Position numbers and translations under genes: made by a program
In this document: one piece after another, positions 8,961 through 13,631 of the stretch
Layout: each line of letters opens with the position of its first letter
How positions within the stretch are numbered: the first letter of the stretch is position 1
Assembly (NCBI RefSeq): GCF_013407165.1
Contig: NZ_CP026994.1
Coordinates: 744,001 to 808,000, forward strand
Length of the DNA: 64,000 nucleotides
Direction of reading: 5' to 3'
Source: Nitrosopumilus oxyclinae
Lineage (GTDB): Archaea; Thermoproteota; Nitrososphaeria; Nitrososphaerales; Nitrosopumilaceae
Notes under the pieces: model-generated
What the model was told of the DNA's origin: nothing
Database searches by the model: none
Seen by the model: the letters and a program-made list of their open reading frames with translations, nothing else

Positions 8961-8980
8961 TTCAGAGAAAGATGATTTTC

Positions 8981-9196
8981 ATGTCTGAATCACAACAAAT
9001 CAGTATTTCAAAGACTGGTGTTTCAAAATTAGCAATTCTGGCATTGGCAATTGTATTTGCAGCAGGATTGTTTGTTGTTGGATTTGATCAAGGACATATC
9101 TTTAGTCTAGTTTATGGCGAGCAAGCATTTACAGACCTTTACATTCATGAGCTTACTCATGATATGAGACATGCAGCTGGCTTTCCTTGTCATTAG
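8981..9196 (+). CDS. cbtB: CbtB-like putative cobalt transporter subunit
   Basis: A 71-residue protein with one transmembrane helix (about residues 16-38) and a histidine-rich C-terminus (YIHELTHDMRHAAGFPCH), the hallmark of CbtB. CbtB is proposed to feed cobalt to CbtA for cobalamin synthesis. ATG 8981 is chosen over ATG 8972 because of the TATA box spacing. cbtA follows 12 bases downstream. No cobalamin riboswitch was recognisable upstream. Confidence 0.82.
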   Translation: MSESQQISISKTGVSKLAILALAIVFAAGLFVVGFDQGHIFSLVYGEQAFTDLYIHELTHDMRHAAGFPCH

Positions 9197-9208: not shown

Positions 9209-9937
9209 TTGAAAACCATTATTTTTATCACTATTGTTTTGCTCTCTGGCGCTTTTGCAGGATTCATTCATGGAACTGTGAATTTTGCCATAGTAGAACC
9301 ATATCTTGATCAGGCAATTGGAATTGAAAATCAAAATCTCTTTGATTCTGGAGAAGAAGAAGACAATGCAGAGTTTTGGATTGAATATGAAGGATATCGA
9401 ACGTGGCAAAAAAGTGGTCAAATTTTAGCTGGTGTAATTTTGGGAACATCTGTTGGTGCTCTTTTTGGAATTGTTTTTGCATTGTCTAGAAATACACTCC
9501 CTGGAAATCATGATGTAAAAAAATCTCTACTACTTGCAGGAATTATGTGGTTTACTCTATATCTAATACCTTTTTTGAAATATCCTGCAAATCCTCCAAC
9601 AGTTGGTGATGCTGAAACTGTAGTTCTTCGAGCAATTCTGTATCTATCCTTTATTGCAATCTCTGGAATAGGTGCATTGGTATTTTACAAAGTGTCTAAG
9701 AAATTAGAAAATAATAAAAAATTCATATCTTTAATTGGATATGGTATTTTCATTAGCGCTGTATTCTTCATAATGCCTGAAAACCCCGATGAAATTACTG
9801 CCCCAATGAATTTGGTAAATGAATTTAGATTAATGTCTGTACTTGGTGTTTCGTCATTTTGGATTTCTGTAGGTATAATTTTGGGTTTGTTCTGGAATCG
9901 TTTTGAATCTAGAAAAGAAACAACTCAGTATTCATAA
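9209..9937 (+). CDS. cbtA: CbtA-like putative cobalt transporter
   Basis: A 242-residue integral membrane protein with about six hydrophobic helices, encoded directly behind cbtB. The first helix contains FAGFIHGTVNF and the loop after it is acidic with EYEGYRTWQKSG. The cbtB-cbtA pairing is the main support. It starts at TTG 9209, since no ATG lies upstream. The organism group is known for cobalamin synthesis, and a PduO-type adenosyltransferase is at 48522, so a cobalt role is reasonable but inferred. Confidence 0.8.
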   Translation: MKTIIFITIVLLSGAFAGFIHGTVNFAIVEPYLDQAIGIENQNLFDSGEEEDNAEFWIEYEGYRTWQKSGQILAGVILGTSVGALFGIVFALSRNTLPGNHDVKKSLLLAGIMWFTLYLIPFLKYPANPPTVGDAETVVLRAILYLSFIAISGIGALVFYKVSKKLENNKKFISLIGYGIFISAVFFIMPENPDEITAPMNLVNEFRLMSVLGVSSFWISVGIILGLFWNRFESRKETTQYS

Positions 9938-9964
9938 TTATTCTAACTCTCTAGAATGAGAATG
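9933..9964. promoter_or_regulatory. Imperfect operator-like inverted repeat upstream of the wHTH pair
   Basis: Right arm TAGAATGAGAATG (9952-9964) faces a left arm matching it at 10 of 13 positions (9933-9945), separated by 6 bases. The right arm sequence and the 6-base spacer recur in the perfect repeat at 10815-10844 ahead of the PhnD gene. It ends about 10 bases before the TATA box GTTTAAATAG (9975-9984). Confidence 0.6.
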
Positions 9965-9974
9965 ATTACAGCCC

Positions 9975-9984
9975 GTTTAAATAG
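9975..9984 (+). promoter_or_regulatory. TATA box of the wHTH pair
   Basis: GTTTAAATAG lies about 29 bases upstream of ATG 10009. This supports leaderless translation from 10009 rather than from the ATG at 9985, which would fall upstream of the expected transcription start. Confidence 0.5.
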
Positions 9985-10008
9985 ATGGACAATATTTCTC
10001 ATATTTGC

Positions 10009-10338
10009 ATGTCAAGAAAATTAACTTTGCCACAATTAAAAAAATATGATATCACTCAAAAAGTAATAGAAGCATTGGCTGATTCTGAGTCAAGGGCAAT
10101 TCTGTTTTCAATCATTAAGAAAGGTAACACTGCAGCTGAACTATCCTACAAATTAAAAATCCCTCTAAGTTCAGTGTATAAAAAATTGAAAGATCTTGAG
10201 GAATTAACACTAATTGAAGTTGAACAATGGATGCTATCTGATAAGGGGAGAAAATACAAAGTTTATCGAAGTAGAATAAGTAAGGCTGATATCTCCATTA
10301 GAAAACCTGAACCTGTTTTAACATTAATTCCAAATTAA
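10009..10338 (+). CDS. Winged helix-turn-helix transcriptional regulator
   Basis: A 109-residue DNA-binding protein with an ArsR/MarR-like winged helix: a helical region IEALADSESRAILFSI, a recognition segment AELSYKLKIPLSSVYKKLKDL, and a wing ending GRKYKVYRSRI. ATG 9985 is in frame, but promoter spacing favours 10009. A paralogue follows after 8 bases. An operator-like inverted repeat lies just upstream and again before the PhnD operon, so regulation of itself and the importer is likely but inferred. Confidence 0.85.
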   Translation: MSRKLTLPQLKKYDITQKVIEALADSESRAILFSIIKKGNTAAELSYKLKIPLSSVYKKLKDLEELTLIEVEQWMLSDKGRKYKVYRSRISKADISIRKPEPVLTLIPN

Positions 10339-10346
10339 GTGATTTT

Positions 10347-10697
10347 ATGCAAAAACCAACCATAATCCAACTATCTGAATTTGACATTACTCAGAGAATT
10401 ATTGAATCCCTTAGCAATGTATGTACTAGATCTGTATTATTTTCAGTCAAAAATGAATCAAAAGATGCGACACAAATTTCTGATGAATTGAAAATTTCAC
10501 TTTCAACTGTTTACAAAACATTGTCCACACTTGAGGATCTCGCTCTTGCTGAGATTGACAAGTATGTTATTTCTACAGAGGGTAAAAAAATCAAACTTTA
10601 TCGGAGTAGAATAGGCAAGGTGGAAATTACATTGGAGGATTTGGAACCTAGTCTAAATTTGTACTCAAACACTTCTAATCCTAAATCCAATTCATAA
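10347..10697 (+). CDS. Winged helix-turn-helix transcriptional regulator (paralogue)
   Basis: A 116-residue paralogue of the preceding gene, sharing FDITQRIIESL, ISLSTVYKTLSTLEDL and KLYRSRIGKVEI. The tandem arrangement implies a duplication and perhaps a heterodimer. The spacing of 8 bases implies cotranscription. Downstream lies a 200-base promoter region with a perfect inverted repeat and then the PhnDCE-type importer, the probable target. Confidence 0.83.
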   Translation: MQKPTIIQLSEFDITQRIIESLSNVCTRSVLFSVKNESKDATQISDELKISLSTVYKTLSTLEDLALAEIDKYVISTEGKKIKLYRSRIGKVEITLEDLEPSLNLYSNTSNPKSNS

Positions 10698-10814
10698 AAA
10701 TATAATTTAAGACCAATTGTCTTTGTTACTATTTTTAGCAATGTGATATTTCTAATTTAATTATCCTTACTATTGTTGAGCATATTATACAAATCGAGCC
10801 TATCAAGTAATTAT

Positions 10815-10844
10815 ATTCTCATTCTATAGATTTAGAATGAGAAT
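10815..10844. promoter_or_regulatory. Perfect 12-6-12 inverted repeat, operator upstream of phnD
   Basis: ATTCTCATTCTA (10815-10826) and TAGAATGAGAAT (10833-10844) are exact reverse complements separated by TAGATT. The element sits about 18 bases upstream of an AT-rich TATA region (about 10860-10872) and about 55 bases upstream of ATG 10899. The related repeat at 9933-9964 lies upstream of the two wHTH genes, marking both as a shared operator. Confidence 0.75.
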
Positions 10845-10898
10845 TAAAAATGAAACCTTAATTTAAATAATTTAGCTTATCCTAATTTTTTGTTAATC

Positions 10899-11987
10899 AT
10901 GAAACGACAACTTACAATAACATTGATTGCTGTATTTGCAGCAGTTGGTGTTTTGTCTGTACCATTAACTCAGACAGTCCAAGCTGAAAGTTTAGTCCCT
11001 GAATGGATTAAAACAAATGCTGGTTGGTGGGCTGATGGTGCACTAGATGATGAAACTTTTCTAAATGGAATTGAATTTCTATTAGAAAGTGGAATCATTA
11101 ATGTTTCATCTGAATCAAAAACTACAATTTCAGAACCTCTTACCATCGGATTTATTCCAGTTGAAAAAGCTGATGAATTAACTCCAAAAGCTCAAGCACT
11201 AGAAACATTTCTAGAACATGAACTTGGTATAGATGTTGAAATTGTTGTTCCAACAAACTATGAAACTATCATTGAAGGAATGAGATTTGGTCATATTGAT
11301 GCTGCCTTTATGGATACTGGTCCTGCATGGATTACCCATCAAAGAACCGGTGCAGAAGCTGTAATGGCTGAACTTGTTGCAGGTAAAGTAAATTATCAAG
11401 CAACTGTTTGGGCACTTGCTAACAATGATTCAATTCAATCCTTAGAAGATACGGTTGGAAAAAAAGTGGCATTTACCAGCATAACTGGTTCCTCTGGTTT
11501 TGTTAGACCTATGGGAACCCTAGTTACTGATGGACACATTACAATTGAAGGTGATGACATTGTTGCTTTGGAATCTGCATTGGCAAATAACTTTGAAAGT
11601 TATACTTTTGCAGGCGGATACAAAGCTGCATTACAGTTACTTCTTAATGGTAAAGTAGATGTTGCATTTGGTTCAGATATTGCTCCGCAAAAATATCTTG
11701 AATTAGAAGATCAAGTAAAGTTACGTCCAGTTACAACAATTGGACCTGTACCATCACATGTGTTTATGGTAAGTTCAGACATGTCTGACTCTACCAAAAA
11801 AGCACTAGTTGATGCATTAATTCAACTCAATTATGATGAAAATAATCATATTTTGACTGACTTGTATGGTGCAGAAGCTCTAGTTCCAACAACTACTACT
11901 ATGCACATTGGTGAGTTTGGTAGTTTTATCGATGCTTTAACAGGCCTTGATCAGAAAATCCTTGATAAATATAACAAGAGCAAATAA
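10899..11987 (+). CDS. phnD: PhnD-type ABC transporter substrate-binding protein with N-terminal WIKxNAGWW domain
   Basis: Extracytoplasmic binding protein of a phosphate/phosphonate-type importer. ATG 10899 begins a signal peptide (MKRQLTITLIAVFAA... to about residue 30); a TTG three codons earlier is less likely. Residues about 33-72 (EWIKTNAGWWADGALDD...) form a short domain I recall from other secreted thaumarchaeal proteins. The remainder is a periplasmic-binding fold with TIGFIPVEKADELTPKA and DAAFMDTGPAWI, typical of the PhnD family. The ligand could be phosphonate, phosphite or phosphate; no C-P lyase is in the window. Confidence 0.85.
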   Translation: MKRQLTITLIAVFAAVGVLSVPLTQTVQAESLVPEWIKTNAGWWADGALDDETFLNGIEFLLESGIINVSSESKTTISEPLTIGFIPVEKADELTPKAQALETFLEHELGIDVEIVVPTNYETIIEGMRFGHIDAAFMDTGPAWITHQRTGAEAVMAELVAGKVNYQATVWALANNDSIQSLEDTVGKKVAFTSITGSSGFVRPMGTLVTDGHITIEGDDIVALESALANNFESYTFAGGYKAALQLLLNGKVDVAFGSDIAPQKYLELEDQVKLRPVTTIGPVPSHVFMVSSDMSDSTKKALVDALIQLNYDENNHILTDLYGAEALVPTTTTMHIGEFGSFIDALTGLDQKILDKYNKSK

Positions 11988-12004: not shown

Positions 12005-12835
12005 ATGAAACAAATTCAGATGACCCAAAACCCTTCTTTTTCATTAATTTCTACAAATAAAATCATCCAGATGAGTGATGTATCTACATCATATGATTCC
12101 AAGAATTTTGCATTAGAAAAAATTAATCTTTCAATTGATAGGGGAACTAATTATGCCATTGTTGGTCAATCAGGCTCTGGAAAATCAACTCTACTGAAAT
12201 TAATGAATGGAATGATGGTTCCAAGTAGTGGGGTAATTAAAATTGATTACACTACACCTGACATGAACAATAAAAAATTTAAAAAAATGATGCATACAAT
12301 AGGATACATCCCTCAAAGTTTAGGGTTGGTAAAAAATATCACAGTACTTGATAATATTTTAATTGGATCTTTGCCTAGATTAAATAAAATACAGTCATTT
12401 TTAAAAAAATTCCCTGAACATGAAATCATTGAAGCTAAAAGAATAATTTCACTTGTTGGACTAACGGGCAAAGAAAACAGAAAAACCTACATGTTAAGTG
12501 GTGGTGAAAAACGTAGAGTTGCTATTGCCAGAGCATTGATGCAAAAACCCACTATTTTGTTAGCAGATGAAATTGTTTCAGAACTTGATCATGTTACTGC
12601 AAAAGAAATAATGGATTTAGTTGCTGATGCTCAAAAACAAATGAATTTGACTGCTATCATGGTCCATCATGATATGCAATTAGCATTAGAATATGCAAAC
12701 AGGGTTGCAGTGATTAAGGAAGGTCATAAAATTTTAGAAATAGGCGTTGAGGGTGACACTATTGTTGATTTTCAAACAGGAGATATGACTACTGAAGAAA
12801 TAATGGAGATGTATGATGATGACACCAAAAAATAA
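12005..12835 (+). CDS. phnC: PhnC-type ABC transporter ATPase
   Basis: A 276-residue ATP-binding subunit of the importer. It has Walker A GQSGSGKST, a Q-loop (YIPQSLGLV), signature LSGGEKRRVAIARAL and Walker B ILLADE, followed by an H-loop (MVHHDM). The D-loop region reads EIVSELD where PhnC proteins more often have EPxASLD. It lies 17 bases after phnD and overlaps phnE by 23 bases, a tight operon. Confidence 0.9.
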   Translation: MKQIQMTQNPSFSLISTNKIIQMSDVSTSYDSKNFALEKINLSIDRGTNYAIVGQSGSGKSTLLKLMNGMMVPSSGVIKIDYTTPDMNNKKFKKMMHTIGYIPQSLGLVKNITVLDNILIGSLPRLNKIQSFLKKFPEHEIIEAKRIISLVGLTGKENRKTYMLSGGEKRRVAIARALMQKPTILLADEIVSELDHVTAKEIMDLVADAQKQMNLTAIMVHHDMQLALEYANRVAVIKEGHKILEIGVEGDTIVDFQTGDMTTEEIMEMYDDDTKK

Positions 12836-13631
12836 TATTGTAATTGGGATTATTGTGGGACTCGTTCTTATTGCATCCTATAATGTTGAAGCTAATCCTT
12901 TAGAATTTGCTGAAGGTTTACCTAATCTTGGAATTGTTCTTGAAGAAATCCTAGTTTTAGAAAATATTATTGATAATATGAAATATGTTCCAACTGCTCT
13001 TTTAGCAATGCTTGAAACATTGCAAATGGCTTTCATTGGAACTGTAATTGGTGTTGTTATTGGATTGCCATTTAGTATGCTTGCTGCACGTAACTTGAAT
13101 AACAAATTCGTTTATGCTCCAATTAGAGCATTTTTAGCGATAATTCGCACGTTTCCTTCAATTCTATGGGCAATGTTATTTGTAATTGTTGTTGGATTGG
13201 GACCGTTTGCTGGTGTCCTGGCAATAATTCTATACACAATTGGATTTGTAACTAAATTACAATACGAATCGATTGAAACTATTGATTCTGATCCTATGGA
13301 TGCTGTCACTTCTATTGGCGTTTCAAAATTCCAATTAATTAGATATGTTGTAATTCCTGAATCTGCCTCACATCTTCTTGGTCAAATGCTTTACATGTTT
13401 GATTACAATGTTCGTCAAAGTACTATTTTGGGTATTGTAGGTGCAGGAGGTATTGGTTTTTACGTTGTACAATATATCAAATTCTTTGAATATGGAAAAG
13501 TTGCTGTGTTCATGTTTGTTGTGTTGATAGTGGTTTTGGGAATTGATTGGGCTAGTGTTAAAATGCGAGATAAATTTATTGTAAAATCCCAACATGGGAT
13601 GGAAGTTACTACAAAAAAATTTACGTTGTAA
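12813..13631 (+). CDS. phnE: PhnE-type ABC transporter permease
   Basis: A 272-residue permease with about six membrane helices. The stretch around SIGVSKFQLIRYVVIPES is the EAA-like loop that contacts the ATPase, and the GVIGLPFSMLAARNL segment is typical of PhnE. The start at the first of overlapping ATGs (12813) lies inside phnC; a later ATG at 12816 or 12819 is possible. The 3' end overlaps convergent purP by 11 bases. Confidence 0.88.
   Translation: MMMTPKNNIVIGIIVGLVLIASYNVEANPLEFAEGLPNLGIVLEEILVLENIIDNMKYVPTALLAMLETLQMAFIGTVIGVVIGLPFSMLAARNLNNKFVYAPIRAFLAIIRTFPSILWAMLFVIVVGLGPFAGVLAIILYTIGFVTKLQYESIETIDSDPMDAVTSIGVSKFQLIRYVVIPESASHLLGQMLYMFDYNVRQSTILGIVGAGGIGFYVVQYIKFFEYGKVAVFMFVVLIVVLGIDWASVKMRDKFIVKSQHGMEVTTKKFTL

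Follow-up and report, generated by a model that had tools for sequence, protein, structure and literature searches.

The window analysed here, 64,000 nt of the complete 1.585-Mb genome of Nitrosopumilus oxyclinae, carries the genes CbtB, CbtA, wHTH-A, wHTH-B, PhnD, PhnC and PhnE in that order, and two questions arise from this locus: which protein acts on the inverted repeat found ahead of both the wHTH pair and the PhnDCE operon, and what the PhnDCE transporter carries. A first-pass annotation had described a perfect 12-6-12 palindrome ahead of phnD, an imperfect copy with the same arm and the same spacer ahead of the wHTH genes, and a TATA region just downstream of each. The palindrome, hereafter element A, was found as described, with all 12 arm bases complementary (ATTCTCATTCTA-TAGATT-TAGAATGAGAAT). 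The copy at the wHTH operon reads ATAATTATTCTA-ACTCTC-TAGAATGAGAAT; its right arm is identical to that of the phnD copy and its left arm fits at 9 of 12 positions (3 mismatches). The two spacers were equal in length and different in sequence. Each arm is built from two hexamers in tandem (TAGAAT GAGAAT). The TATA-like TTTAAATA follows the repeat after 12 nt at the wHTH operon and after 17 nt at phnD, in agreement with the annotated promoter position. Coordinates of these and the other features are given in Table 1.

Table 1. Features of the wHTH and phnDCE region, numbered from the first letter of the window.
Feature	Position	Strand	Basis
CbtB, probable cobalt transporter subunit, without element A in front	8972..9196	+	element A core in 0/66 CbtB promoters at ≤1 mismatch
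CbtA, conserved neighbour	9209..9937	+	family match
Element A, imperfect copy ATAATTATTCTA-N6-TAGAATGAGAAT, overlaps the cbtA stop codon	9934..9963	+	sequence, genome search
TATA box TTTAAATA, wHTH operon	9976..9983	+	kept between element A and wHTH-A start in relatives
wHTH-A, 109 aa, probable ligand of element A	10009..10338	+	ORF, family search, relatives
wHTH-B, 116 aa, near-invariant Cys26	10347..10697	+	ORF, family search
Element A, perfect 12-6-12 inverted repeat, phnDCE promoter	10815..10844	+	sequence, genome search
TATA box TTTAAATA, phnDCE promoter	10862..10869	+	kept in relatives
Element B TTAGCTTATCCTAA (TTAG-N6-CTAA), iron-box-like, between TATA and phnD start	10872..10885	+	sequence, relatives
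PhnD-family substrate-binding protein, 362 aa, transferrin-like ligand set	10899..11987	+	profiles, alignments, model
Asp139 codon, aligned with transferrin Asp63	11313..11315	+	invariant in 27 orthologs
Tyr241 codon, aligned with transferrin Tyr188	11619..11621	+	invariant in 27 orthologs
His287 codon (in VPSH), aligned with transferrin His249	11757..11759	+	invariant in 27 orthologs
PhnC-type ATPase	12005..12835	+	TIGR02315 200 bits, below cut-off 266
PhnE-type permease	12813..13631	+	TIGR01097 253.9 bits, above cut-off 216.7

When up to 3 mismatches were allowed in the 24 fixed bases, the full repeat was matched twice in the window and not once in 100 shuffles. The genome-wide search that the annotation had proposed returned the same two sites and no others, both at regulator or transporter promoters, and the reversed control returned 0. 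The half-site TAGAATGAGAAT alone, with 2 mismatches, was found 22 times against 20 expected, which is not unusual and is uninformative by itself.

Among the 121 family genomes, 32 held the full repeat at ≤3 mismatches and none held the reversed pattern. Perfect 12-bp arms were peculiar to this genome, every other site having at least 2 mismatches. Most relatives retained a shorter core, ATTCTA-N6-TAGAAT, just upstream of TATA; in the PWMs, the conserved portion was TTCTA-N6-TAGAA together with a single outer hexamer, which was TATA-proximal at wHTH-A and TATA-distal at phnD. Promoters were counted in the best 80 of 179 loci found via wHTH-A, to which all counts in the rest of this paragraph refer. 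The 90 nt before wHTH-A contained the core in 52/80 loci at ≤1 mismatch and in 72/80 at ≤2, compared with 0 and 1 for the mirror pattern and 0.3% and 3.6% for dinucleotide shuffles. The 90 nt before PhnD, at loci with a usable start, contained it in 34/42 and 39/42, respectively (mirror, 0 and 0; shuffles, 5.5% at ≤2 mismatches), and 51 of the 52 loci with PhnD in the slot behind the pair had the core ahead of PhnD at ≤2 mismatches. CbtB promoters had it in 0/66 and 2/66, and the inside of the wHTH-A gene in 0/80 at either threshold. Before wHTH-B the core was scored in 2/79 and 26/79 loci; these matches are a weak resemblance, in frame, within the last part of wHTH-A. Conservation at the same loci in relatives, as anticipated by the annotation, was therefore observed, and the opposite outcome that it had named, a repeat that is common and has no relation to promoters of regulators or transporters, was not: the element is rare elsewhere. 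The half-site count is what would be expected if the similarity were accidental or common to promoters in general; the reversed controls, mirror controls and shuffles contradict such an origin of element A and leave it practically no probability.

Relatives' PhnD promoters frequently had an extra TTAGAATGA between the repeat and TATA, which is degenerate in the window. The core with TTAGCTTAnCCTACA directly after it was present in 50/121 genomes (reversed control, 0); in 27/30 loci (G000:C1:640522-640558, which is L068 and L316, and relatives among L292-L321), a TFB gene followed at a distance of 77-84 nt. The general transcription factor TFB may belong to the same regulon. Two further sets of single sites are leads only: in G003 alone, a ferritin-family gene (PF00210) has a repeat with 3 mismatches in front of it (L006:1501-1530), and in two genomes the repeat is flanked or followed by the gene for a protein of about 105 aa with no Pfam match (L021:866-1210, L031:1577-1888). 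A plasmid search gave no match.

The gene that follows the wHTH pair was not always PhnD. In the best 80 of the 179 loci, the slot behind wHTH-A/B was occupied by PhnD in 52, by the iron permease FTR1 in 10 and by a ZIP metal transporter in 3; none was found in 10, and the contig ended in 5. FTR1 was recognised by PF03239 (60.8 bits) and the motifs REGLE and REGFE, and ZIP by PF02535, with one copy above the cut-off and another just below it. In a separate set of 30 FTR1 loci, the core at ≤2 mismatches was counted by eye in 29, L107 being the one without it; FTR1 came after CbtA-wHTH-A-wHTH-B in 13 of the 30. Across the 121 genomes, 51 had PhnD, 40 had FTR1, 3 had both and 33 had neither (Fisher p 1.6e-8, not phylogeny-corrected), and swaps between PhnD and FTR1 occurred within genera g1, g2, g4, g14 and g19. 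All 19 genomes of g6 and g9 had neither PhnD nor FTR1; at the g6/g9 loci L283 and L286, a ZIP gene divergent from wHTH-A was preceded by the repeat, TATA and element B. In several genomes the gene before FTR1 encodes a 522-aa protein without a clear Pfam family (L167:1751-3316); the core lies ahead of this gene in L167 and L201. Paralogous PhnDCE systems were seen at L244-L256, some next to wHTH-A/B-like paralogs and several with the core in front.

Element B was a second conserved repeat. In the best 80 of 179 loci, the script found a repeat of the TTAG-N6-C(C/T)TA type past element A in 49/52 PhnD loci, in 2/10 FTR1 loci and in 0/3 ZIP loci; in the separate FTR1 set, TTAG-N6-CTAA stood exactly 15 nt past the element A site in 12/30. 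TATA plus element B, at ≤2 mismatches, was matched at 48 places in 46/121 genomes (control, 9), and 17 of 30 such loci inspected by BLAST had PhnD or FTR1 within 400 nt. Compared with the first 14 positions of the IdeR iron box consensus TWAGGTWAGSCTWACCTWA, as quoted in an excerpt of PMC9505556, element B agrees at 12; however, it spans 14 bp as against the 19 bp of the box, and a DtxR/IdeR-type protein is a candidate repressor only. Two loci in the genome, near positions 1033378 and 123030 of G000:C1, encode DtxR-family proteins above the PF01325 cut-off. A literature search with exact iron-box strings produced nothing useful beyond the excerpt of PMC9505556. Clustered TTAGGT-type repeats occur far from PhnD and FTR1 at L280 and L281 (g19).

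The annotation had taken the repeat as a strong operator candidate and the adjacent wHTH proteins as its obvious ligands. A sample of 20 unlinked or divergent wHTH-A loci was examined. With the pair unlinked from PhnD/FTR1, the core still preceded wHTH-A in each of the 8 g19 genomes (0-1 mismatch) and in both sampled g6 genomes (0 mismatches). It had 1-3 mismatches at the sampled g9 loci, was weak in part of g14 (where the script misplaced the site at five loci) and was absent or unrecognisable in the sampled g2, g7, g11, g15 and g16 genomes. Retention of element A at an unlinked wHTH-A promoter fits autoregulation by the pair but is no proof of it. Relatives of wHTH-A (E ≤ 0.001) were present in 117/121 family genomes, and wHTH-B is 43-44% identical to wHTH-A. 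Both proteins resemble the Lrs14/Sta1/TrmB-like archaeal regulators in being small and in matching these families weakly; however, the scores fell below the curated cut-offs (TrmB, 24.7 against 25.6; Sta1, 26.4 against 80; Lrs14, 22.8 against 90), and the window proteins occur as an adjacent pair. The wHTH-A sequence contains no Cys and no His, indicating that it is unlikely to be the metal sensor itself, and sensing was therefore assigned to a DtxR-type protein.

A different factor, either a DtxR protein or an unlinked regulator, might instead bind element A, with the wHTH genes as a mere target. The presence of the element before TFB genes and unlinked FTR1 genes would agree with this, but the element stays at the wHTH promoter whether linked or unlinked, and wHTH-A relatives are nearly as widespread as the family genomes themselves, so that we regard such a factor as rather unlikely. 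Conservation, rarity and retention when unlinked, all read from sequence, support the view that element A serves as an operator at both promoters and that its likely ligands are the neighbouring wHTH proteins. The annotated operator was nevertheless only part of the picture, which also includes the FTR1, ZIP and TFB genes behind the element and a further repeat near the start of phnD, iron-box-like and overlooked in the annotation.

PhnD scored 154.7 bits with PF12974 (cut-off 27) and passed the TIGR01098 cut-off; the PhnD equivalog TIGR03431 failed (100.3 bits, cut-off 261.1). PF00405 (Transferrin) was narrowly above its gathering score at residues 97-236 (22.0 against 20.3 bits), and one paralog passed as well. 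A profile of residues 128-300 searched against the PDB ranked ovotransferrin and melanotransferrin ahead of all phosphonate proteins. We take the transferrin iron ligands to be Asp63, Tyr95, Tyr188 and His249, and Arg124 to be its anion-binding residue. When PhnD was aligned with two human transferrin lobes by hhalign (E 6.8e-8), D139/D63, Y241/Y188, H287/H249 and the anion-loop threonines T193/T120 were paired, whereas Tyr166 fell one residue off Tyr95; three of the four ligands thus align exactly. The Arg124 position is Gly197 in PhnD. Asp139, Tyr166, Tyr241 and His287 were invariant among the orthologs (27 sequences). A first full-length model with a mean pLDDT of 60.5 was set aside, and a second, whose input alignment included paralogs, reached 91.5. 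Its nearest folds were PtxB (Z 26.2) and PhnD (Z 23.6), and it matched the ovotransferrin N-lobe with Z 22.5 and an rmsd of 2.9 over 263 residues. The window protein has the transferrin fold, with residues aligned to three of the iron ligands and to the Thr of the anion loop; unlike the two-lobed transferrins, it has a single ABC-coupled lobe, lacks an Arg124 equivalent and has its fourth ligand off by one position. The diatom phytotransferrin described in PMC7972479 may be named beside the transferrins as a comparable system. In its N-terminus (residues ~28-75, window 10980-11125), PhnD has a PxWIKxNAGWW module, which many family genomes contain 13-20 times each.

If the wHTH pair governed a true phosphonate or phosphite importer, as a phosphonate/phosphate regulon would have it, the metal links would be accidental. 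Such a regulon draws on the PF12974 and TIGR01098 scores, on the PhnE score above its equivalog cut-off and on the PtxB and PhnD folds; the fold, the D-C-E gene set and the family models are indeed what the window operon has in common with the PhnD/PtxB importers. However, none of Asp139, Tyr241 and His287 was found in the four solved phosphonate/phosphite-binding proteins compared. In E. coli PhnD, P. aeruginosa PA3383 and two PtxB proteins, respectively, position 139 is Gly throughout, position 241 is Glu, Glu, His and His, and position 287 is Asp, Asp, Tyr and Tyr. FTR1 or ZIP can also take the slot with element A in front, the promoter carries the iron-box-like element B, and AOA have no C-P lyase according to the accessible parts of two surveys (PMC7490402, PMC3990693). 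We consider a phosphonate regulon improbable; the one implied by the first-pass annotation was probably wrong, the context being metal or iron uptake.

These data do not single out one metal, because the annotation of CbtBA points to cobalt and because Mn or Zn may also be served by DtxR-type regulators and by ZIPs. FTR1 and the ligand set of PhnD make iron the most likely, and the adjoining CbtBA keeps cobalt possible. A regulon for cobalt, manganese or zinc would account for CbtBA upstream, for the ZIP in the slot and for L256, where CbtBA lies immediately ahead of PhnDCE; it fits poorly with FTR1 and its REGLE motif, with a transferrin-like set whose His and Tyr suit Fe(III), and with CbtB promoters that have no element A, and it seems unlikely to us. 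Several observations weigh against an iron importer under a two-operator metal regulon. The AOA PhnD paralogs (28-35% identical) have Ser at position 139, and those with the core element in front lack Asp139; Tyr241 and His287 were kept in 13/13. The offset of Tyr166, the Gly at the Arg124 position, PtxB and PhnD as the nearest folds, the genera without a recognisable element A at wHTH-A and the few FTR1 and ZIP loci with element B count on the same side. On balance, a two-operator metal-uptake regulon with PhnDCE as an iron importer is the probable reading of the locus.

From these observations we infer the binder of each element, its mode of action and the substrate of the transporter as follows. 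The wHTH-A/B pair would bind the copy of element A ahead of its own genes, giving autoregulation, and the copy ahead of the adjacent metal importer, just upstream of the TATA region. Element B, behind TATA, would be a second operator, for a metal-dependent repressor of the DtxR/IdeR type. With sufficient metal, the repressor on element B would block phnDCE; when metal is short, element B would be freed and the wHTH proteins on element A would set the output, probably as activators. This assignment of roles follows archaeal promoter layout, since element A lies upstream of TATA and a site behind TATA suits a repressor. The importer would carry iron(III), and its binding protein would be a PhnD fold in a transferrin-like form with one lobe. 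In its full form, the proposal is that AOA import Fe through an ABC transporter whose single-lobe transferrin-type Fe(III) protein arose from the PhnD fold, under a previously undescribed promoter with two operators (one for the wHTH pair upstream of TATA, the other for an iron-box repressor downstream of it) and with a slot refilled repeatedly by FTR1 or ZIP; we lean slightly towards this proposal as a whole.

Among the PMC-licensed papers brought up by the literature searches, no title or abstract opening contained an iron reading of AOA PhnDCE. According to an excerpt of PMC7490402, AOA phnCDE genes occur without C-P lyase, suggesting another substrate or a nonfunctional system, and an excerpt of PMC6776035 describes strain SCM1 as having no iron-specific uptake proteins. 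If PhnDCE is an iron importer, this would account both for the presence of phnCDE in AOA that lack C-P lyase and for the seeming absence of iron-specific uptake in SCM1. Relatives of Nitrosopumilus, which require iron, rank with the most abundant microbes of the ocean. If the iron reading is true, phnD in ocean surveys would denote iron stress and not phosphonate uptake, and a prokaryotic transferrin relative with iron ligands would inform the origin of transferrin.
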